DNA of 64,000 nt from Burkholderia seminalis DSM 23518 (lineage in GTDB: Bacteria > Pseudomonadota > Gammaproteobacteria > Burkholderiales > Burkholderiaceae). Positions 6,674 to 16,795 of the stretch are shown here, piece by piece. Where the stretch lies: positions 558,001-622,000 of the forward strand of contig NZ_CADFDK010000002.1 of the NCBI RefSeq assembly GCF_902832885.1. The letters are read 5' to 3'. The position numbers and the translations under genes were made by a program. The notes under the pieces are model-generated. The model saw nothing but the letters and a program-made list of their open reading frames with translations. It was not told where the DNA came from and ran no database searches. Position 1 is the first letter of the stretch. Each line of letters begins with the position of its first letter.

Positions 6674-8053
6674 TCATTCGACCGGATGCAGGTCCTGCAG
6701 CAGCGTCGGCACGAGTTCCGACACGGTCGGATGGATATGCATCGCGCGGCTGATCGTCGTGTACGGCGCGCCGGCGGCCATCACGTCGAGCATGCCGTGC
6801 ACGACTTCGTCGCCGGTCACGCCGAGGATCGAGGCGCCGAGGATCGCATGGCTGTCCGCGTCGACGATCACCTTCATGAAGCCCTGGCTTTCGCCTTTCT
6901 CGACTGCACGGCCGACGCGCGTCATCGGGCGCGTGCCGACCAGCAGCCGGCGGCCCGTCTGTTTCGCTTCCGCGAGCGTCATGCCGATGCGGCCGAGCGG
7001 CGGGTCGATGTACATCGCGTAGGCCGTGATGCGGTCGGACACCTTGCGCGGATCGTCGTCGAGCAGGTTCGCCGCGACGATCTCGTAGTCGTTGTACGCG
7101 GTGTGCGTGAACGCGCCGCGACCGTTGCAGTCGCCGAGCGCCCAGATGCCCGGCACGTTCGTGCGCAGTTGCTCGTCGACGGCGATGTAGCCGCGCGCAT
7201 CGGTGCCGACGCCCGCGCGGTCGAGCCCGAGATCGTCGGTGTTCGGCACGCGCCCGACCGCGAGCAGCAGGTGCGAGCCCGCGACTTCGCGGCCGCCGCC
7301 CGAACAATCGAGGCCGACCACGATGCCTTCGCCATCGCGTCGCGCGCTCAGGCAGTTCGCGTCGAGCTGCACGTCGATCCCTTCGTTCTCGAGAATCTCG
7401 CGCACGGCCTGCGACACGTCTTCGTCCTCGCGGCGAATCAGCCGCGGTCCTTTCTCGACGATCGTGACCTGCGATCCGAAGCGGCGATACATCTGGCCGA
7501 ATTCGAGCCCGACGTAGCTGCCGCCGACGATCACCAGATGCTCGGGCAGGAAGTCGACATCCATCATCGTCGAATTGGTCAGGTACGGCACCGAGTCGAG
7601 GCCCGGCATCGCGGGCACCTGCGCGCGGCCGCCGACGTTGATGAAGATGCGCCCGGCCTCGAGCAGTTCGTCGCCCACGCGCACGGCGTCGGCGCGCTCG
7701 AAGCGGGCGTGACCCTGAAACACCGTGGTGTTCGCGAGACCGCGCACCCATTGCTCGACGCCGTGGTTCGAGCGGCCGGAGATCTGGTCCTTGCGCGCCT
7801 TCACGGCTTTCATGTCGACGGTGACGGGGCCGCCCACCGACACGCCGTATTCGCCGGCGCGCCGTGCGAGCTGCGCGGCGTACGCGCTCGCGATCAGCGT
7901 CTTGGTCGGGATGCAGCCGGTGTTCACGCAGGTGCCGCCGAAGCGGCCGCGCTCGATGATCGCGACCTTCATGCCGGCGGCCGACAGCCGCGCGGCGAGC
8001 GGCGGGCCGGCCTGGCCGGTGCCGATGACGATCGCGTCGAAGTGTTGCGTCAT
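6674..8053 (-). CDS. FAD-dependent pyridine nucleotide-disulfide oxidoreductase (mercuric-reductase-like)
   Basis: A 459-residue protein starting MTQHFDAIVIGTGQAGPPLA, with AGGAGG well placed upstream; a longer frame to 8188 is non-coding. It shows the FAD GxGxxG at the N-terminus, the redox-active dithiol GGTCVNTGCIPTKTL, an NAD(P)-binding GGSYVGLEFGQMYRRFG and ALGDCNGRGAFTHTAYND before the dimerisation domain, which ends HIHPTVSELVPTLL. This is the class I flavoprotein disulfide reductase layout. There is no N-terminal heavy-metal domain, no C-terminal vicinal Cys pair and no mer genes nearby, so mercury reduction is unlikely. It could be a soluble transhydrogenase-like or dithiol reductase. 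Confidence 0.88.
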   Translation of the reverse strand: MTQHFDAIVIGTGQAGPPLAARLSAAGMKVAIIERGRFGGTCVNTGCIPTKTLIASAYAAQLARRAGEYGVSVGGPVTVDMKAVKARKDQISGRSNHGVEQWVRGLANTTVFQGHARFERADAVRVGDELLEAGRIFINVGGRAQVPAMPGLDSVPYLTNSTMMDVDFLPEHLVIVGGSYVGLEFGQMYRRFGSQVTIVEKGPRLIRREDEDVSQAVREILENEGIDVQLDANCLSARRDGEGIVVGLDCSGGGREVAGSHLLLAVGRVPNTDDLGLDRAGVGTDARGYIAVDEQLRTNVPGIWALGDCNGRGAFTHTAYNDYEIVAANLLDDDPRKVSDRITAYAMYIDPPLGRIGMTLAEAKQTGRRLLVGTRPMTRVGRAVEKGESQGFMKVIVDADSHAILGASILGVTGDEVVHGMLDVMAAGAPYTTISRAMHIHPTVSELVPTLLQDLHPVE

Positions 8054-8169
8054 GACGTCCTCCTGTGCGGGTGCGACGAGGGAACGCGTGCGGGCGAGCC
8101 GCGTGCGATGCCGGCGCACGGTCGCGCGACGGCGAGCGCCTATGGTAGTCCTGTTGGCGTGCGCCCGCG

Positions 8170-8748
8170 TCAGTCCTTGCGCTTCCACTGGCCGAACGAC
8201 ACCGGCCGGTGCGTGTCGGCGCGCGTGACGGTGACGCGGTCAGGCTGGTCGTCGAGCGGGAACGATTCGGTGACGATCTGGTTCGAGAACAGCCAGCCGC
8301 GCGTACGGGGGTCGTAGCGGAACGTGATGTAGTCGGTCCAGTGCTGCCCGCACGCGACGAAGTTCTGCACGGTGAAATAGCGGCCCTTCACCGACAAGCC
8401 GTTGTCGGCGGCGTCTTCGGGATCGAACGGGTCGCACTGGCCGCCGTCGTTCGCGCGCAGCACGACCACGTCGTTGCGCGCGGCGAGCCGGTAGGTGTGG
8501 TCGGCCTGCTCCTCGTAGATCAGCAGCGGGCGCGGCGACGGGTGTTCGCGCGTATCGACCGCGCGATGCACGACGACGAGCACGCTGTGCCGCCCGTGGT
8601 CGAGATCCGGCCCGGCTTGCGCGAGCAGCGGCTGGTAGCCGGGCGGCAGTTGCGCGGCGATCGACTTCGGCACATCGGCGGCGCGGGCGGCGGCCGGCAG
8701 GCCCGCGAGCAGCGGGAGCATCAGGGTAGCGAGGCGGAGAGCACGCAT
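8170..8748 (-). CDS. Exported hypothetical protein
   Basis: A 192-residue protein starting MRALRLATLMLPLLAGLPAA, a typical Sec signal peptide ending around ARAAD. The mature part contains YQPLLAQAGPDLDHGRHSVL and FVACGQHWTDYITFRY, with two cysteines that could pair. I do not recognise the family with certainty; similar proteins are annotated as hypothetical in Burkholderia. It is divergent from the LysE gene and lies upstream of the reductase on the same strand, 116 bp apart. A very long in-frame extension to 10107 is antisense to other genes and is not real. Confidence 0.75.
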   Translation of the reverse strand: MRALRLATLMLPLLAGLPAAARAADVPKSIAAQLPPGYQPLLAQAGPDLDHGRHSVLVVVHRAVDTREHPSPRPLLIYEEQADHTYRLAARNDVVVLRANDGGQCDPFDPEDAADNGLSVKGRYFTVQNFVACGQHWTDYITFRYDPRTRGWLFSNQIVTESFPLDDQPDRVTVTRADTHRPVSFGQWKRKD

Positions 8749-9018: not shown

Positions 9019-9657
9019 ATGACTGCATCGGCTGCCGTACTCGCCATCCTGGCCGCGTTGTTTCTCGGTGCGATGATTCCGGGCCCGAGTTTCGTGCTGG
9101 TGGCCCGCAATTCGATCGGGCTGTCGCGTCGCGACGGGCTGGCCACCGCGCTCGGCATGGGTATCGGCGGCATCGTGTTCGGCGGCGTCGCGCTGGCTGG
9201 GCTCTACACGCTGCTGCAGGCCGTCGAATGGCTGTACGTGGGCCTCAAGGTCGCGGGCGGCGCGTACCTGATCTACATGGCGTCGAAGATCTGGCGCGGC
9301 GCCGACCGGCCGATCGCGATGGACGATCCGCAGGCGCTGGCCGGCGGCAGCGCGCGCAAGTCGTTCCTGACGGGCCTGACGACCCAGCTCAGCAACCCGA
9401 AGACGGCAATCTGGTACGGCAGCATCTTCGCGGCGCTGCTCCCGCAGCATCCGCCGCTGTGGTGCTATCTCGCGCTGCCGCCGCTCGTGTTCGCCGTCGA
9501 ATTCGGCTGGTACACGCTCGTCGCGCTGTGCTTCTCGACGCGCCGGCCGCGCGAGCTCTACCTGCGCGCGAAGAAGTGGATCGACCGCATCGCGGCCGGC
9601 GCGATCACGCTGCTCGGGCTGCGGCTGATCCTGAACGCGCCGAAAGCAGGGATCTGA
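9019..9657 (+). CDS. LysE/RhtB-family amino-acid exporter
   Basis: A 212-residue inner-membrane protein starting MTASAAVLAILAALFLGAMI, with AAGGAG upstream; in-frame codons back to 8866 are not supported. The family signature PGPSFVLVARNSIGLSRRDG follows the first membrane helix, and GVKVAGGAYLIYM-type and QLSNPKTAIWYGSIFAA segments are typical of RhtB proteins, which have about six helices. Members export homoserine, threonine, lysine or related compounds. There is no regulator next to it, and 270 bp separate it from the divergent exported-protein gene. Confidence 0.88.
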   Translation: MTASAAVLAILAALFLGAMIPGPSFVLVARNSIGLSRRDGLATALGMGIGGIVFGGVALAGLYTLLQAVEWLYVGLKVAGGAYLIYMASKIWRGADRPIAMDDPQALAGGSARKSFLTGLTTQLSNPKTAIWYGSIFAALLPQHPPLWCYLALPPLVFAVEFGWYTLVALCFSTRRPRELYLRAKKWIDRIAAGAITLLGLRLILNAPKAGI

Positions 9658-9961
9658 CCTTTCATTCGCGATCCGCATCGCACGGCGGCCGGCCATGCGT
9701 CGGCCGGGCCGCCGGAGCGAACCGCCGGGGCCGGCGCGCGAATGCGCATCGGGTCGCCGGAAACGCCTGCCTTTTCTCGTGACGCGGCCGCGCGCCGGGC
9801 CGCCGCCGACTTGCCTCCCGGAGCCCTCCGCCGCCCGCCGAGCCTTGCGTGGCGGGCGTTCGCGCGTGCCGCGCGGCGCGCCGACGGGCGCCGCCTCCCC
9901 GATTCTGACGGTCGACCTCCCGGCGGCGTGTAAACTGCTGCCTTTTTTGACGGTTTGCAGC
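9658..9961. other. 304-bp intergenic region before the DUF3348 operon
   Basis: Strongly GC-rich with several self-complementary GGCCGG stretches near 9682-9700 that could form a hairpin behind the LysE gene. Near 9900-9960 there are TA-containing stretches (a TGTAAACT at about 9929 and a TTGACG at about 9947) that may belong to the promoter of the following operon. I see no convincing gene. Confidence 0.4.
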
Positions 9962-10747
9962 ATGGTGCAAGCACCTCCGCGCCCGGCGCTGAGCGGTCCG
10001 ACGCTCGTCCGGCTGCTCGCGCGCCTGGCCGATGCCGACGTCGCGGAATCCCGGCAGACGTTGTCCGACCGGCTGAGCCAATGGCTCGGCTGGACCGACG
10101 CGATCACGCTGTCGTCCGCGCTGAACGCGAGCCCGCCGGGCGTCGCGGCCGGCGTGCGCGGCTACGATGCGGAACGCGACTGCGCGCGCGTGCGCCACGA
10201 CCTCGCGCAGGCGATCACGGCCACCCACCGGCCGCGTGCGCGGCGCCGGCCCGGCGACCTGCCGCCGCCGGCCGCCGATACGGCCGATTTCGCGGACTTC
10301 CGCCAGCGTTACCTGACGCTGCAACAGGATATGGAGACCGCGATCGGCCAGTTGCGCGGCCGCCTGCGGGTCGCGCTCGCCGCGCGCTCGTCCGGGATGG
10401 CGCGGCTCGCGACGCTCGACACGATCATGGAGCGCGTGCTCGGCGCGCGCGAGCGCAGCCTGCTGTCGGCCGTGCCCGCGCTGCTCGGCACGCGTTTCGC
10501 GCGGTTGCGCGACGCGGAACGGCAGGCGCTGGCCGACGCCGAATCCGCTGCTGCTGCTGCTGCTGCCGCCGACCCGGCCGGATCGGCCGATGACGGCGCG
10601 GCGGCCGGCACCACGGCCGTCGCGGCGATCGTGCCCGGCACATGGCTCGATACGTTTCGCGACGAGATGCAAAGCATCCTGCTTGCCGAACTCGAAGTCC
10701 GGTTTCAAACGGTAGACGGGCTGCTCGCGGCCCTTCGCACCTGCTAA
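9962..10747 (+). CDS. DUF3348-family protein, first gene of a putative motor operon
   Basis: A 261-residue protein starting MVQAPPRPALSGPTLVRLLA. It is soluble, with no signal peptide or membrane segment. A helical body includes DFRQRYLTLQQDMETAIGQL and a final DTFRDEMQSILLAELEVRFQ helix. A run of six GCT codons at 10547-10564 makes an alanine tract (ESAAAAAAAAD). I assign it to DUF3348 from remembered family resemblance and from its position: in Burkholderiales such genes precede DUF802, OmpA and DUF2894 genes, exactly as here. The next gene starts 10 bp after its stop, so the four are one transcription unit. Its role is unknown; a cytoplasmic accessory factor for the membrane proteins is a reasonable guess. 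Confidence 0.75.
   Translation: MVQAPPRPALSGPTLVRLLARLADADVAESRQTLSDRLSQWLGWTDAITLSSALNASPPGVAAGVRGYDAERDCARVRHDLAQAITATHRPRARRRPGDLPPPAADTADFADFRQRYLTLQQDMETAIGQLRGRLRVALAARSSGMARLATLDTIMERVLGARERSLLSAVPALLGTRFARLRDAERQALADAESAAAAAAAADPAGSADDGAAAGTTAVAAIVPGTWLDTFRDEMQSILLAELEVRFQTVDGLLAALRTC
10547..10564 (+). repeat. Six-copy GCT trinucleotide tract
   Basis: Six consecutive GCT codons encode an alanine tract in the DUF3348 protein. Length changes here would be in frame. Confidence 0.85.
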
Positions 10748-10757
10748 TCAACACGCT

Positions 10758-13700
10758 ATGTCCAGAATTCGCCTTGATCTCGTTGTCTTCGTCGCCGGTC
10801 TGCTCGCTGTGGGCTGGATCGGTGCCGGCTATGTCGCGTCGAACCCGCTGGCGTCGGCCGTCACGCTGCTGATCGGCGCGTGCTACGTCGCCGGCGCCTG
10901 GGAACTGCTGCGCTACCGCCAGGCGACCGCCACGCTGTCGCGCGCGGTGGCCGGCCTGGCCGAGCCGCCCGCGAAGCTCGACACGTGGCTCGACACGCTG
11001 CACCCGGGCCTGCGCGGCGCGGTGCGTGCGCGTGTCGAAGGCGCGCGCGTCGCGCTGCCGGGCCCGGCGCTCACGCCGTACCTCGTCGGCCTGCTCGTGC
11101 TGCTCGGCATGCTCGGCACGTTGCTCGGCATGGTCGTCACGCTGAAGGGCACGGGCGCCGCGCTCGAAAGCGCGACCGATCTCGACGCGATCCGCGCATC
11201 GCTGATCGCGCCGGTGAAGGGCCTCGGGTTCGCATTCGGCACGTCGATCGCCGGCGTCGCGACCTCCGCGATGCTCGGCTTGCTGTCCGCGCTCGTGCGC
11301 CGTGAGCGGATCGACGCGGCCCAGCAGCTCGACGCGAAGATCGCGACGACGCTGCGCGTGCATTCGTCCGCGCATCAGCGCGACGAATCGTTCCGGTTGC
11401 TGCAGCGCCAGGCCGACGTGATGCCGGCGCTGGTCGACCGTCTGCAGACGATGATGACGACGCTCGAAGCGCGCAGCGTCGCGCTGCACGATCGCCAGCT
11501 CGAAAACCAGCAGGCATTTTTCGACCGGACCGAGCGCGCGTATGCGGGCCTTGCATCGAACGTCGGCGACGCGCTGAAGGAAAGCGCCGCCGAAAGCGCA
11601 CGCGTGGCCGGCGCCGCGTTGCAGCCGGTCGTCGCCGCGACGATGACGGGGCTCGCGCAGGAGATGGCCGCGTTGCGCGACACCGTGACGGGCGCCGTGC
11701 AGCGTCAGCTTGACGGATTGACGGACGGCTTCGAGAAGACCACCGGCAACGTGACGGCCGTCTGGAACCGCGCGATCGACGAACAACGTCAGGCGGGCGA
11801 CGCCGTCGCGCGTCAGTTGCAGACGACGCTCGGCCAGTTCACCGATACCTTCGCGCAGCGCACGTCGGACCTGCTCGACAGCGTCGCGACGCGCCTCGAA
11901 TCCACCGAAAGCCGTCTGTCGGATGCGTGGCGCGATGCGCTGGCGCGCCAGGAGCAGGTCGGCGAGACGCTGGCCGGCCAGCATGCGCGTGCGCTGGGCG
12001 AAGCCGCCGCGACGTTCGAGCGCCATTCGGGCGCGGCGCTCGCCGCGATGCGCGAGTCGCACGCCGGGCTGCAATCGCAACTGGCCGCACGCGACGAAGA
12101 ACGTCTGTCGGCGTGGAACGATTCGCTGGCCGCGATGGCCGCGAAGCTCGGCGACGAATGGCAGCGTGCGGGTGTGCACAGCGCAGGCCGCCAGCAGGAA
12201 ATCTGCGACGCGCTCGCGCAAACGACGCGCGAGCTCACCGCACAGGCCTCGACGTTCGAACAACGCTCGAACGACTTGCTGACGACGATCCGCGAGTCGC
12301 ACACGGGCCTTCAATCGCAACTGGCTGCGCGCGACGAAGAGCGTCTGTCGGCGTGGAACGACTCGCTGGCCGCGATGGCCGCGAAGCTTGGCGACGAATG
12401 GCAGCGTGCGGGTGTGCACAGCGCCGGCCGCCAGCAGGAAATCTGCGATGCACTCGCGCAAACGACGCGTGACCTCACCGCACAGGCGTCGACGTTCGAA
12501 CAACGCTCGAACGATTTGCTGACGACGATCCGCGAGTCGCACACGGGCCTTCAATCGCAACTGGCCGCACGCGACGAAGAGCGTCTGTCGGCGTGGAACG
12601 ACTCGCTGGCCGCGATGGCCGCGAAGCTCGGCGACGAATGGCAACGTGCGGGCGTGCACAGCGCCGGCCGCCAGCAGGAAATCTGCGACGCGCTCGCACA
12701 AACGACGCGTGAGCTCGCCACGCAGGCGTCGACGTTCGAACAACGCTCGAACGACTTGCTGACGACGATCCGCGAGTCGCACACGGGCCTTCAATCGCAA
12801 CTGGCCACACGCGACGAAGAGCGTCTGTCGGCGTGGAACGACTCGCTGGCCGCGATGGCCGCGAAGCTCGGCGACGAATGGCAGCGTGCGGGCGTGCACA
12901 GCGCCGGCCGCCAGCAGGAAATCTGCGACGCGCTCGCGCAAACGACGCGTGAGCTCGCCACGCAGGCGTCGACGTTCGAACAACGCTCGAACGATCTGCT
13001 GACGACGATCCGTGAGTCGCACGCCGGTCTGCAATCGCAGCTCGCCGCACGCGACGAAGCTCGCCTGTCCGCCTGGAACGATTCGCTCGCCGCGATGGCG
13101 GCGGCACTGCGCGACGAATGGGCGCAGACGAGCGCGCAAGCCGCGACGCGCCAGCAGGACATCTGCGACACGCTGGCCCGCACCGCGAACGACATCACCG
13201 CGCAGGCACAGGTGCACGCGAGCGACACGATCAACGAGATCGCGCGCCTCGTGCAGGCCGCGTCGGAGGCGCCGAAGGCCGCGGCCGACGTCGTCGCCGA
13301 GCTGCGCCAGCGCCTGTCCGACAGCATGGTGCGCGATACCGCGACGCTCGAGGAGCGCAGCCGCCTGCTCGCGACGCTCGAAACGCTGCTCGGCGCGGTC
13401 AACCACGCGTCGACCGAACAGCGCGCCGCGATCGACGCGCTCGTCAGCACGTCGGCCGACCTGCTCGATCGCGTCGGCGCACGCTTCAACGATGCCGTCG
13501 ATGCCGAAACGCGCAAGCTCGACTCGGTGGCCGCGCAGGTCACGGCCGGCGCCGTCGAGGTGGCGAGCCTCGGCGATGCGTTCGGGATGGCCGTGCAGGT
13601 GTTCGGCGAATCGAACGACAAGCTGCTGACCCACCTGCAGCGCATCGAGGCCGCCCTCGAGAAGTCGCTCGCGCGCAGCGACGAGCAGCTCGAGTACTAC

Positions 13701-13805
13701 GTCGCGCAGGCGCGTGAGGTGATCGACCTGAGCATGATGTCGCAGAAGCAGATCGTCGAAGACCTGCAGCAGCTCGCCGGCCGGCGCGCGCCCGTCGGAG
13801 CGTAA
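10758..13805 (+). CDS. DUF802 repeat protein: MotA/ExbB/ZorA-like membrane protein with a very long repeated coiled-coil tail
   Basis: A 1015-residue protein. Hydrophobic segments lie at about 8-26, 32-50, 106-128 and 152-180. The third contains GLLVLLGMLGTLLGMVVTL and the fourth GLGFAFGTSIAGVATSAMLG, followed by RRER. This resembles the proton-channel helices of MotA/TolQ/ExbB proteins (the GLLGTVxGM-type and TAxGLxVAI-type segments). After residue 190 the chain is hydrophilic, helical and Ala/Gln/Arg-rich. Residues about 435-754 are four nearly identical 80-residue repeats (240 bp each in DNA), then a fifth divergent copy, matching DUF802, a domain known as tandem repeats. The order channel-like head then long cytoplasmic coiled coil parallels ZorA. 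The stop is 3 bp before the MotB/OmpA-like gene. Function is unknown; a motor stator is inferred. Confidence 0.8.
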   Translation: MSRIRLDLVVFVAGLLAVGWIGAGYVASNPLASAVTLLIGACYVAGAWELLRYRQATATLSRAVAGLAEPPAKLDTWLDTLHPGLRGAVRARVEGARVALPGPALTPYLVGLLVLLGMLGTLLGMVVTLKGTGAALESATDLDAIRASLIAPVKGLGFAFGTSIAGVATSAMLGLLSALVRRERIDAAQQLDAKIATTLRVHSSAHQRDESFRLLQRQADVMPALVDRLQTMMTTLEARSVALHDRQLENQQAFFDRTERAYAGLASNVGDALKESAAESARVAGAALQPVVAATMTGLAQEMAALRDTVTGAVQRQLDGLTDGFEKTTGNVTAVWNRAIDEQRQAGDAVARQLQTTLGQFTDTFAQRTSDLLDSVATRLESTESRLSDAWRDALARQEQVGETLAGQHARALGEAAATFERHSGAALAAMRESHAGLQSQLAARDEERLSAWNDSLAAMAAKLGDEWQRAGVHSAGRQQEICDALAQTTRELTAQASTFEQRSNDLLTTIRESHTGLQSQLAARDEERLSAWNDSLAAMAAKLGDEWQRAGVHSAGRQQEICDALAQTTRDLTAQASTFEQRSNDLLTTIRESHTGLQSQLAARDEERLSAWNDSLAAMAAKLGDEWQRAGVHSAGRQQEICDALAQTTRELATQASTFEQRSNDLLTTIRESHTGLQSQLATRDEERLSAWNDSLAAMAAKLGDEWQRAGVHSAGRQQEICDALAQTTRELATQASTFEQRSNDLLTTIRESHAGLQSQLAARDEARLSAWNDSLAAMAAALRDEWAQTSAQAATRQQDICDTLARTANDITAQAQVHASDTINEIARLVQAASEAPKAAADVVAELRQRLSDSMVRDTATLEERSRLLATLETLLGAVNHASTEQRAAIDALVSTSADLLDRVGARFNDAVDAETRKLDSVAAQVTAGAVEVASLGDAFGMAVQVFGESNDKLLTHLQRIEAALEKSLARSDEQLEYYVAQAREVIDLSMMSQKQIVEDLQQLAGRRAPVGA
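12061..13230 (+). repeat. 240-bp tandem repeats within the DUF802 gene
   Basis: Four copies of exactly 240 bp begin at 12061, 12301, 12541 and 12781, and a diverged fifth copy starts at 13021. Each copy encodes 80 residues including LAARDEERLSAWNDSLAAMA and STFEQRSNDLL. Copies differ at only a few mostly synonymous positions, which implies recent duplication or gene conversion. Whole-copy gain or loss stays in frame, so protein length is likely to vary between strains. Confidence 0.95.
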
Positions 13806-13808
13806 CGC

Positions 13809-14453
13809 ATGCACGACGAAATCGACGGCGGCGCGCAATCGGCGCCGGTTTGGCCCGCGTTCGCCGACCTGATGTCGGTGCTGCTCGGCGCGTTCGTGCT
13901 GATCCTCGTCGGCGTGATCGGCATGCAGCTTCAGTTGACGTCGAAGCTCGAGGAAGCCGTGCGGGCGCGCCAGCTCGAGGCGCAGCAGCGCAAGTCGCTC
14001 GAACAGGCGCTCGCCGGGCCGCTCGCGGCCGGCCGCGTGACGCTCGTGAACGGGCGCATCGGCATCAGCGGCAGCGTGCTGTTCGCGCTGAATTCCGACC
14101 AGTTGCAGCCGGCGGGCCGCGACCTGCTGAAGTCGCTGGCCGCACCGCTGGCCGCGTACCTGAAGACGCGCGACGAGATCCTGATGATCAGCGGCTTCGC
14201 GGACGATCAGCAGGTGCACGCCGGTAACCGCCTGTTCGCGGACAACTGGGAACTGTCGGCCAAGCGCGCGTTGACGGTCACGCGTGCGCTGATCGACGCC
14301 GGCGTGCCGGCATCGTCGGTGTTTGCCGCCGCATTCGGCTCGGAGCAGCCGGTCAGCTCGAATGCGGACGATGAAGGCCGCGCGAAGAACCGCCGCGTGG
14401 AGATCGCGCCGGTGCCGCGCAAATCGGCATCGAACGGAGGGAAGGCGAAGTGA
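13809..14453 (+). CDS. MotB/ZorB-like OmpA-family protein
   Basis: A 214-residue protein with a single N-terminal membrane helix containing WPAFADLMSVLLGAFVLIL (residues about 15-33). Asp20 sits where MotB, TolR and ZorB carry their proton-conducting aspartate in a similar FxDLM context. A short coiled coil follows (SKLEEAVRARQLEAQQRK), then an OmpA-C peptidoglycan-binding domain: FALNSDQLQPAGRDLL, ISGFADDQQV, NWELSAKRALTVTRALIDAG, and the closing DDEGRAKNRRVEI. This is the layout of a stator B subunit anchoring to the cell wall. It lies directly between the channel-like protein (3-bp gap) and DUF2894 (4-bp overlap). Confidence 0.9.
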   Translation: MHDEIDGGAQSAPVWPAFADLMSVLLGAFVLILVGVIGMQLQLTSKLEEAVRARQLEAQQRKSLEQALAGPLAAGRVTLVNGRIGISGSVLFALNSDQLQPAGRDLLKSLAAPLAAYLKTRDEILMISGFADDQQVHAGNRLFADNWELSAKRALTVTRALIDAGVPASSVFAAAFGSEQPVSSNADDEGRAKNRRVEIAPVPRKSASNGGKAK

Positions 14454-15058
14454 CGGACGACGCGACGCACGTCCGCGCGACGCTCGACGCATGGCGCGAG
14501 CAGGGCGCCGACCGGCTCGATCCCGTCCGCTTCCACCGGATCGACGCGCTCGAACGGCGTGCGGCCGCGCTCGGCGGAAACGCGCGTGCATTGCTCGACG
14601 CGCGGCTGGCGGCGTTGATCGAAGACTATTCGGCAGTCGTCGCGCGGGCGGAGGAAACGCGCGCCACGGATGACGCGGCACCGGTTGCGCCCCGGCGTGG
14701 CGCGCTCGCGGCGCTCGTCGACCGGCTCGCGCGCGATGCGCAGGCCGACCGGCGCGGGCTCGATCCCGAACTGGTCGACTACTTCCGCACGATGTGGTCG
14801 AAAGTCCGCACGGAGCAGCAATACCGCCAGTCGCTCGACCAGGTGCCGCGCAACGCGGGGCCGCTCAATTCGAACAGTCTCGTGCACCGGTCGCTGGCAA
14901 CGATGCGCGAATTGTCGCCGGAATACCTGCAGCAGTTCCTGTCGTACGTCGATGCGCTCGCGTGGCTCGAGGATCTCGCCGGCGGCGGCGCGCAACCCGA
15001 GAAGGAAGCGCCGCGCGCGAAGGTGGTGAAGAAGTCCACGCGGAGCAAGAGCCGCTAG
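14450..15058 (+). CDS. DUF2894-family protein, last gene of the motor-like operon
   Basis: A 202-residue soluble protein starting at GTG 14450, overlapping the preceding stop (GTGA), so translation is probably coupled. The sequence has a helical N-terminal part (RFHRIDALERRAAALGGNAR), a middle ELVDYFRTMWSKVRTEQQYR and a conserved-looking NAGPLNSNSLVHRSLATMRE, then a basic Lys/Arg/Ser C-terminus. It matches what I know of DUF2894 and keeps the cluster order seen in other Burkholderiales. The basic tail might contact nucleic acid or phospholipid. The function is not known. Confidence 0.78.
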   Translation: MTDDATHVRATLDAWREQGADRLDPVRFHRIDALERRAAALGGNARALLDARLAALIEDYSAVVARAEETRATDDAAPVAPRRGALAALVDRLARDAQADRRGLDPELVDYFRTMWSKVRTEQQYRQSLDQVPRNAGPLNSNSLVHRSLATMRELSPEYLQQFLSYVDALAWLEDLAGGGAQPEKEAPRAKVVKKSTRSKSR

Positions 15059-15091: not shown

Positions 15092-15595
15092 TTACATCGA
15101 CAGCCGGCCCGAGGCCGCCGCGTGTTGATACCGCGCTGCGCTGATGAATTTCGAAAAGCGTTCGCACCAGATCACGACGGACGTGTATTGCGCCGGATTC
15201 ACGTCGTCGGGCAGCGGCACGACGAAATTGCCGAATGTCCTCAGGTCGCCCACGCGCGCGGCACGCGCCTTGATCGCGAGGAACGATGCCTTGGTATCGA
15301 CGAATTCCGGCACGAGATAGATCTTGTAGTCGGGCCCCGGTGCGATGTCGCCTTCGAACGCGATCGACGTATCGGTGACCGTCAGCTTGCCGTCCGCCCA
15401 GTGCAGCGCATCGCTGCCCGGCAGGCCGCGTTCGAAGCGGCCGGTATGGCGTGCGTTTTCCGCGGCCACTTGCAGTTCGACGGCGCTCGCGCCTTCCGAT
15501 GCCGTCAGGATCGGCAGCACGTAGATGCCCGCGGCGAATGCCACGAGGCCCGTCGCGAGATGCGACGCGATCAGTATTCCGATTCCGGTTTTCAT
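15092..15595 (-). CDS. DM13-domain membrane-anchored protein
   Basis: A 167-residue protein starting MKTGIGILIASHLATGLVAF, an N-terminal hydrophobic segment that is either an uncleaved anchor or a signal. The remaining domain, from GRFERGLPGSDALHWADGKL through PGPDYKIYLVPEF to VVIWCERFSKFISAARY, matches the DM13 domain. The single Cys in the VVIWCE segment is the conserved DM13 cysteine, and the domain has been proposed to act in redox or electron transfer outside the membrane. It is divergent from the small exported protein at 15836 and converges with the motor-like operon. Confidence 0.82.
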   Translation of the reverse strand: MKTGIGILIASHLATGLVAFAAGIYVLPILTASEGASAVELQVAAENARHTGRFERGLPGSDALHWADGKLTVTDTSIAFEGDIAPGPDYKIYLVPEFVDTKASFLAIKARAARVGDLRTFGNFVVPLPDDVNPAQYTSVVIWCERFSKFISAARYQHAAASGRLSM

Positions 15596-15835
15596 ATCGG
15601 ACCCTTTGAGCGTGAACAGAGGGTGGCGCACGGCTACGTCCCTGTAGTCGCGCGAGCCGGTGAAATCTGACAGCGGGCCGGTTTTCCGTTGAACACGCCG
15701 ATTCGGTCGGGCAAGCCGCGTGACGGCCGTGTCGCGACACGGCGAACCATTTTTTCCGTCGGCGTGTGTCATCTTTGCCCGCGTGGAGCGACTCACTCTC
15801 CGTCGACAACATCGTCGATGCCAAGGAGAGTTCAA

Positions 15836-16222: not shown

Positions 16223-16795
16223 TCAGTGCGTTGACTCGCCTTCCGAAATCGCGGTGCCGAGTGCGTGCAGCGCTTCGGCCAGTGCCGCCGCGAACGGTGG
16301 ATGCGCGGCGATGCCCGCCGCATCGAGCTGGCTGCCGAGGATCGGCAGCGCGATCGACGCGCGCTCGACGATGCGTGCGGACATCACCGACAGCGTTTCG
16401 CGCAGCGCCGCGTCCGCATGCGTCGCGCGCGGCGACGCATTCAACACCGCGACCGGTTTGTACACGACCGCCTCGCATCCCACGACCCAGTCCAGCGCGT
16501 TCTTCATCACGCCGGTGATGCCGTGCGCGTATTCCGGGCTTGCGATCAGCACGCCGTCGGCGGCGTTCAGGCGATCGATCAGGTCGCGCACGGCGGCCGG
16601 CGACGGAGATTCGGCATCGGGATTGAACAACGGGAATTCGCCGAGCTGATCGAAGCGCGCGATGCGCATGCCGGGCGGCGCGACGAGTGCGGCCGCATCG
16701 AGCAGCGCGGCGTTGTACGACTGCGCGCGGAGGTTGCCGCACAGCGCGACGATGTCGATGGGACGGTCGGTGTCGGTTCGGGGATGGGTGGTCAT
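16223..16795 (-). CDS. NADPH-dependent FMN reductase (flavodoxin-like)
   Basis: A 190-residue protein of the NADPH-dependent FMN reductase family. The flavin phosphate loop is CGNLRAQSYNAALLDAA (GSLRxxSxN type), and IASPEYAHGITGVMKNALDW is the family's SPEYN/H-GxxKNALDW signature. There is no signal peptide, so it is a cytoplasmic quinone, azo or chromate reductase type enzyme. It follows the acetyltransferase-like gene on the same strand with a 56-bp gap. Confidence 0.9.
   Translation of the reverse strand: MTTHPRTDTDRPIDIVALCGNLRAQSYNAALLDAAALVAPPGMRIARFDQLGEFPLFNPDAESPSPAAVRDLIDRLNAADGVLIASPEYAHGITGVMKNALDWVVGCEAVVYKPVAVLNASPRATHADAALRETLSVMSARIVERASIALPILGSQLDAAGIAAHPPFAAALAEALHALGTAISEGESTH

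Follow-up and report, generated by a model that had tools for sequence, protein, structure and literature searches.

What does a four-gene operon do when it pairs a stator-like membrane couple with a DUF3348 and a DUF2894 protein? We addressed this question for such an operon, here called zor, in Burkholderia seminalis DSM 23518 (GCF_902832885.1, contig NZ_CADFDK010000002.1), analysing a window of 64,000 nt (positions 558,001–622,000, forward strand). A preliminary description of the locus had read it as an undescribed, proton-driven motor system. Our analysis securely identifies the operon as Zorya type III, an already described system, and phage defence is the best supported of the roles that had been suggested for it. 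We consider, with a probability of about 0.7, that the operon is a type III anti-phage system in which ZorA and ZorB form an ion-driven motor, ZorG and ZorF provide the output and a dedicated slippage promoter drives expression. Of most note are a cis element upstream of the first gene and, within the genus, a ZorA tail that varies in steps; the locus itself is known.

ORF (open reading frame) calling placed the four genes on the forward strand with intergenic distances of 10, 3 and −4 bp, exactly as first reported (Table 1). PADLOC models of Zorya type III match all four proteins, with best E-values from 4e-83 to 0, and the gene order DUF3348-ZorA-ZorB-DUF2894, in which the two DUF genes flank those of ZorA and ZorB, is the type III layout. 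Zorya type III was defined on 6,401 loci by Payne 2021 (PMC8565338) as ZorAB flanked by DUF3348 and DUF2894 genes; all four B. seminalis proteins are alike to that system, and we found no feature that separates this copy from other type III systems. According to the same source, a Stenotrophomonas type III copy in E. coli reduced plaquing of at least one phage. The anatomy first proposed, a ZorAB-like motor with DUF3348 and DUF2894 proteins in place of ZorC/D/E, was therefore right, whereas the word “undescribed” was wrong because named type III models match all four proteins and the type was published in 2021 (PMC8565338); that the operon is a motor system new to science is very improbable. 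Gene names follow the labels of PADLOC-DB 2.0.0 (DUF3348, ZorG3; DUF2894, ZorF3). The text of PMC8565338 uses them the other way round, with DUF3348 as ZorF and DUF2894 as ZorG.

The neighbour survey showed that the four genes keep their order and strand in 78 of 80 fetched loci, the two exceptions (L053 and L056) being broken off by contig ends, and in 20/20 more distant loci. The gap between zorG and zorA is 10 bp in 65 of 78 loci and that between zorA and zorB is 3 or −4 bp in 74 of 78. The cassette is constant, yet no neighbour family is common to more than 7 of 54 loci.

Table 1 Features of the zor operon and its surroundings (window coordinates)
Feature	Position	Strand	Details
zorG3	9962-10747	+	DUF3348; 261 aa from ATG at 9962; Pfam 4.8e-86, PADLOC 1.7e-95
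zorA3	10758-13805	+	DUF802, Pfam 1.8e-24 in six stretches; PADLOC ZorA3 E 0; 1015 aa
zorA3 channel-helix region	11082-11303	+	residues about 109-182; conserved T121, T162, S163, S170
Tandem repeat in ZorA tail	12046-13174	+	Tandem Repeats Finder: 240-bp (80-aa) unit, 4.7 copies, 92% matches
zorB3	13809-14453	+	214 aa; membrane helix with D20, linker, OmpA-like peptidoglycan-binding domain; PADLOC 1e-114
ZorB3 D20 codon	13866-13868	+	putative ion-carrying Asp, conserved in 99/99 sequences
ZorB3 OmpA domain	14079-14393	+	residues 91-195; Pfam 4.2e-19
zorF3	14450-15058	+	DUF2894; 202 aa, GTG start; Pfam 9.7e-57, PADLOC 4e-83
ZorF3 basic C-terminal tail	14987-15055	+	residues 180-202; pLDDT <50 at 180-194 and 200-202
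Cis element TGTAAACTGCTGCCTTTTTT	9929-9948	+	-10-like TAAACT 9931-9936; T-run 9943-9948
Pyridine nucleotide-disulphide oxidoreductase	6674-8188	-	neighbour, no PADLOC match
LysE translocator	9019-9657	+	neighbour, no PADLOC match
DM13 protein	15092-15676	-	neighbour, no PADLOC match
FMN reductase	16223-16795	-	neighbour, no PADLOC match

The zorA3 product is a channel protein of MotA/ExbB/TolQ-like type whose long helical tail comprises about 800 residues. Its hydrophobic segments were assessed by eye, and the four polar residues of the channel-helix region listed in Table 1 are each conserved in at least 99% of 114 sequences. The PADLOC model of type I ZorA matches residues 111–195 (E = 1.8e-13), the NCBIfam ZorA model reaches E = 0.0028 and Pfam MotA_ExbB gives E = 9.6, under the family cut-off. 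A lack of MotA/ExbB similarity in sensitive searches would have refuted the preliminary description, but such similarity was found: the profile of 12 ZorA3 relatives has a sole significant chain in the PDB, 8vvn_C (E = 3.3e-5), labelled MotA/TolQ/ExbB protein and taken here, judged by its 696-residue length, as the type I ZorA of PMC11890865. At the sequence level the MotA/ExbB likeness of ZorA3 is real but weak. In hhalign comparisons built on thin profiles, ZorA3 aligned with local type I ZorA (E = 4e-4, probability 34; three frames adjoining ZorC and ZorB matches, chosen by position and length) and with three local MotA/TolQ/ExbB-type proteins (E = 0.014, probability 3).

These channel helices, together with a MotB-like partner carrying an Asp in a single helix, are shared with MotAB/PomAB, TolQR and ExbBD and could mark an ordinary stator of one of these kinds. 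That explanation is extremely improbable, given that Pfam MotA_N and MotB_plug are unmatched at E up to 10, that the tail is about 800 residues long and the partners are others, and that the sole significant solved chain is 8vvn_C; with E = 0.014 against the local MotA/TolQ/ExbB-type proteins, we rejected a flagellar or Tol/Exb stator. A second MotA/MotB-like pair, which has both MotA_N and MotB_plug, lies outside the window (L008:1177-2685; about 667.6–669.1 kb on contig C2 of the window's genome, G000) and comes after an ORF that resembles a regulator by eye.

The stator-B design proposed for the third gene is borne out by the invariant D20, by the OmpA domain and by an hhalign match that spans 183 columns of ZorB3 and the local type I ZorB (E = 1.4e-11, probability 97.4), in which the DLM motifs superpose and D20 lies within this motif. 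Compared with 11 near relatives, the ratio of nonsynonymous to synonymous substitution rates (dN/dS) is 0.095 for zorA, 0.089 for zorB, 0.21 for zorG and 0.27 for zorF. The operon is under purifying selection, and the motor, having the lowest ratios, is its most constrained part. Zorya I (ZorABCD) and Zorya II (ZorABE) likewise combine a ZorA channel and long tail with a ZorB that has a membrane Asp and an OmpA domain. Structures of ZorA5B2 are known for both types, a stoichiometry that the type III pair may share, and the function of both needs the ZorB Asp, peptidoglycan binding and the ZorA tail (PMC11890865). The published structures point to Na+ as the ion of one type I system and to a proton-like site in one of type II (PMC11890865), which leaves “proton-driven” unproven for this operon. 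In the same paper Burkholderia is named as one of the main hosts of type III.

Unlike Zorya I and II, the B. seminalis operon is without ZorC, ZorD, ZorE or a recognisable nuclease or helicase, which is absence of evidence and not proof that it has no such activity. The PADLOC matches of the two partners are exclusively to the ZorG3 and ZorF3 models. No match of either protein to a nuclease, helicase or other enzyme stood above the curated cut-offs of Pfam and NCBIfam, and none was significant in PDB sequence searches; ZorC (PF15611, EH_signature) had no match in the window's genome at E up to 0.001. The structure models are all-helical, with a predicted local distance difference test score (pLDDT) of 88 for ZorG3 and of 74 for ZorF3 (predicted template modelling score 0.43). 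The C-terminal tail of ZorF3 is predicted to be mostly disordered, and the net charge over the final 25 residues of ZorF is at least +3 in 94 of 97 relatives. Within zorG3, close to where the predicted helix 171–203 ends, a run of GCT codons (about 10547–10567) encodes a short stretch of alanines.

A mechanism can be proposed from these parts. ZorA3 and ZorB3 would form an ion-driven inner-membrane motor able to grip peptidoglycan. On piercing or bending the wall, a phage would engage the ZorB OmpA domain, ions would pass D20 and ZorA would rotate; sensing at the envelope belongs to the published Zorya model (PMC11890865). By analogy to the type I and II work, the long helical tail of ZorA may relay the signal into the cytoplasm. 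There ZorG3 and ZorF3 would be the type III output parts and, because neither resembles a nuclease, we infer that they act as adaptors, either bringing in a host effector or controlling the motor; ZorF may touch DNA via its basic tail.

To these parts, and to the preliminary description, our analysis adds two features: the 240-bp repeat in zorA, and the cis element, which lies outside the coordinates covered before. The element consists of TGTAAA[CA]T, then 5–7 bases (six in 82/93) and then four to seven T, located 28–39 bp upstream of the zorG start (33 bp in 47/93). It is present in 60/60 rows of the genus, in 17/18 rows from elsewhere in the window's family (taken as Burkholderiaceae) and in 16/28 rows from family f14 or others, a few loci (for example L043/L181) being counted twice through two start calls; the background of the pattern is 0.003 per 120 bp, operon sites included. 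Family f14 is xanthomonad-like, and the name Xanthomonadaceae would be a guess based on the host list in PMC11890865. Across 59 genus loci, chosen by the presence of TGTAAACT, the 20 bp GTGTAAACTGCTGCCTTTTT is 97–100% identical per column, compared with about 0.8 before it and 0.73 after. Loci beyond the main genus context preserve the core and T-run but vary in the six bases between them. Among loci of differing context, 46 of 51 hold TGTA[AG]A-N-T; in their alignment the core columns are conserved by this selection of loci, T stands at positions 14–18, counted from the core, in 38–45 of these 46 loci, and the further conserved columns are G and, less strongly, C directly before the core and C or A at position 6.

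The element is also rare elsewhere in the genomes. TGTAAAMTN{4,7}TTTTTT has one site in the 7.97-Mb B. seminalis genome, at zorG, and its reversed control has 0. The five-T pattern TGTAAAMTN{5,7}TTTTT stands at zorG in 64/64 genus genomes, with 6 other sites in those genomes and 8 matches of the reversed control in 6 of the 64. In 40 further zor-bearing genomes it stands at zorG in 21 (15/18 of the family, 6/22 others) and at 3 sites elsewhere, and 25 genomes without a DUF3348 match have 4 sites in 2 genomes; here the reversed control gave 8 or 9 matches in 5/65 genomes, G564 accounting for four of the matches.

If TAAA[CA]T is read as a −10 box followed by a 6-nt discriminator, +1 falls on the first T of the T-run. 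This arrangement resembles UTP-sensitive slippage promoters, and transcription would then start at a dedicated core promoter before zorG with the T-run at +1. At E. coli carAB P1, pyrBI, codBA and upp, which have a T-run in the initially transcribed region at about the canonical distance from the −10, UTP-dependent slippage cuts output at high UTP (PMC6245113), and reiterative transcription occurs more widely (PMC4448216). Those E. coli operons serve pyrimidine metabolism, unlike the zor immune operon, and none of the literature matches listed linked reiterative transcription to anti-phage systems. In the Zorya I and III operons of B. cenocepacia K56-2, infection altered the transcription of the leading one or two genes only (PMC12584637), a hint compatible with a slippage promoter.

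The element may instead be the operator of a dedicated regulator or act at the RNA level, a possibility to which we give appreciable weight, short of an even chance. One operon site per genus genome with only 6 others in 64 genomes is what a specific binding site would give, and near-complete identity over 20 bp without a conserved −35 fits it too. Against an operator, the core and T-run are kept while the six bases between them vary, as in a −10 and start site, and the spacing places +1 on the first T; a one-site regulon would moreover need its own regulator, and no additional gene travels with the cassette. With a slippage promoter, UTP-dependent initiation may couple zor expression to the nucleotide pool. 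A stronger version, in which poly-U slippage at high UTP lowers the output of the −35-less promoter and so gates an immune motor that needs no nuclease of its own for its output, is speculative and rather unlikely. If it is true, the motor would be made when phage replication or starvation drains pyrimidines, through a promoter core common to several families and rare elsewhere in their genomes.

The lengths of ZorA in 78 complete genes (the 60-locus genus set and 20 others, minus two incomplete) are dominated by 1015 (34 genes), 935 (8), 855 (4) and 775 (1) residues; the others include 698 (4), 778 (3) and 858 (1), and also 793, 946 and 1110. With the window's gene included, 72 of 99 ZorA lengths lie within 4 aa of 698 + 80n, where about 11 would be expected under uniform lengths; 698 and 80 were picked after inspection and the genes are related, so this fit is a description and not a test. 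It holds for 54/59 genes of the genus and 18/40 of other genera. Outside the genus 17 of the 18 fitting lengths are the base length of 697–701 and one is 778, the remaining 22 fit no step, and ZorA is exactly 698 aa in 13/40 genes. The step rule is therefore a feature of the genus, and 698 aa is the common base form outside it. We rejected 80-residue steps as a rule for all type III systems, as the lengths outside the genus show a single step (778).

The 240-bp repeat exceeds 85% identity in 51 of the 99 genes, at least 49 of which belong to the genus. In 47 genes of 1015, 935 or 855 aa, adjacent copies within a gene are 0.895 alike (137 pairs) versus 0.835 for same-offset copies between species, which may not be counterparts where lengths differ; the 5' 690 bp of zorA have an identity of 0.923 between species. 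The hydrophobic period of the tail has a broad peak at 3.64 residues (100-aa windows). Since 80/22 is 3.636, one 80-aa module would add about 22 whole helical turns; in the 698-aa forms the whole-tail peak is 3.666, a poorer fit to 3.636. The available text of PMC8565338 makes no mention of the tail steps or the cis element.

DUF3348 has a single match in each of 64/64 genus genomes (one per species), that in G050 being confined to profile positions 1–99 (E = 8.8e-22). It occurs in 174/249 family genomes and 11/25 genera, many of the listed misses being genomes below 3 Mb, in 8/370 genomes of the class, and in 49/149 genomes and 16/46 genera of f14. In each of four family genomes (G077, G110, G218 and G263) DUF3348 gives two weaker matches, which may stem from a split or duplicated gene. 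As controls in the same 64 genus genomes, the defence genes ZorC (EH_signature) and JetD are found in 3 and 8, respectively. ZorB occurs (E up to 1e-40) in 27 of 72,556 plasmid records, of which the smallest is 366 kb and 20 are non-mobilizable and 7 mobilizable; Burkholderia plasmid records carry a ZorB 90.6–97.2% identical to that of the window. Phage records gave zero ZorF matches at E up to 0.001.

Such a distribution raises the question of whether the operon is inherited as a core gene set. Of 61 genus loci (60 fetched and that of the window), 49 have the common upstream and 47 the common downstream context, grouped by single linkage of ORF matches; 11 differ on both flanks, and the other flank misses sit at contig ends (L072 upstream; L053, L056 and L065 downstream). 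Seven flank genes of the window were sought in 20 loci of other genera and found in none. In a 79-row FastTree tree, one group (support 90, not starred) comprises 48 genus loci together with L091, and the remaining 10 genus loci are scattered among other genera; starred branches force four genus-label changes, the program flagging long branches. Approximately unbiased (AU) tests on a 30-row tree rejected a single clade for the window's genus (p-AU 0.016) and for g11 (8e-7). Distances in zor and gyrB, the single gene that represents the species tree and a weakness of the comparison, correlate (rho 0.63, 0/1000 permutations as high), and the distance across the split to two f14 genomes, in changes per column, is 0.36 for zor and 3.7 for gyrB. 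We had first expected a strictly vertical core gene, which the disagreement of the zor and gyrB trees and the AU rejections led us to reject. The tree conflicts and differing flanks indicate that the cassette was probably acquired or replaced more than once, yet it is present in every sampled species of the genus.

These data bear on whether the operon serves primarily as a housekeeping motor of the envelope, with phage restriction a by-product of expression in E. coli. Its presence as one match in every genus genome, in contrast to the defence controls, points that way, as do six flanking proteins without a PADLOC match, the lack of a ZorF match in phage records, the few plasmid records, all of at least 366 kb, and one phage test in which knock-down gave no phenotype (PMC12584637). 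Such a role is nevertheless unlikely: the operon is absent from many relatives, often with small genomes, it has been exchanged between genera, and direct phage restriction is published (PMC8565338). Conserved anti-phage systems have also been reported before, including a type III Zorya shown as highly conserved in R. solanacearum (PMC13064858), so that the concept of “core defence” is not itself new; in the literature passages we found no statement of genus-wide presence of type III Zorya.

Several observations weigh against a Zorya type III defence system with its own slippage promoter. Presence in 64/64 species is unusual for a defence system and fits a housekeeping role too, and knocking down the predicted defence genes of K56-2 had no phenotypic effect in one test, with phage Bcep176 (PMC12584637). 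The hhalign probability of ZorA3 with type I ZorA is just 34, and no structure of a type III ZorAB pair turned up. At the cis element there is no conserved −35, nor any other column above 0.7 bit from 50 bp upstream to 44 bp downstream. The searched form is missing in 13/106 rows, 12 of them among the 28 xanthomonad-like or other rows; seven of the 13 retain a near form (a shortened or broken T-run or one altered core base), whereas the other six, which come from four to five loci, have not even that. At zorG, 19 of the 40 zor-bearing genomes from other genera are likewise without the exact five-T pattern.

The locus matters as a member of the least understood Zorya type, for which we found neither structure nor effector in the literature. 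It raises the questions of how a Zorya without a recognisable nuclease acts, whether tail length serves as a ruler and whether UTP pools switch an anti-phage operon. A defence that every sampled species of the genus carries, and that has nonetheless moved between genera, is also relevant to the question of whether some immunity is in effect core.

The six flanking proteins without a PADLOC match include the four neighbours listed in Table 1. Matches to the ZorB1 model recur roughly 100 kb from zorB in several genus genomes. Finally, an antisense open frame of 1418 aa (10425–14681, reverse strand) covers most of the operon and is most likely a by-product of high-GC codon use.

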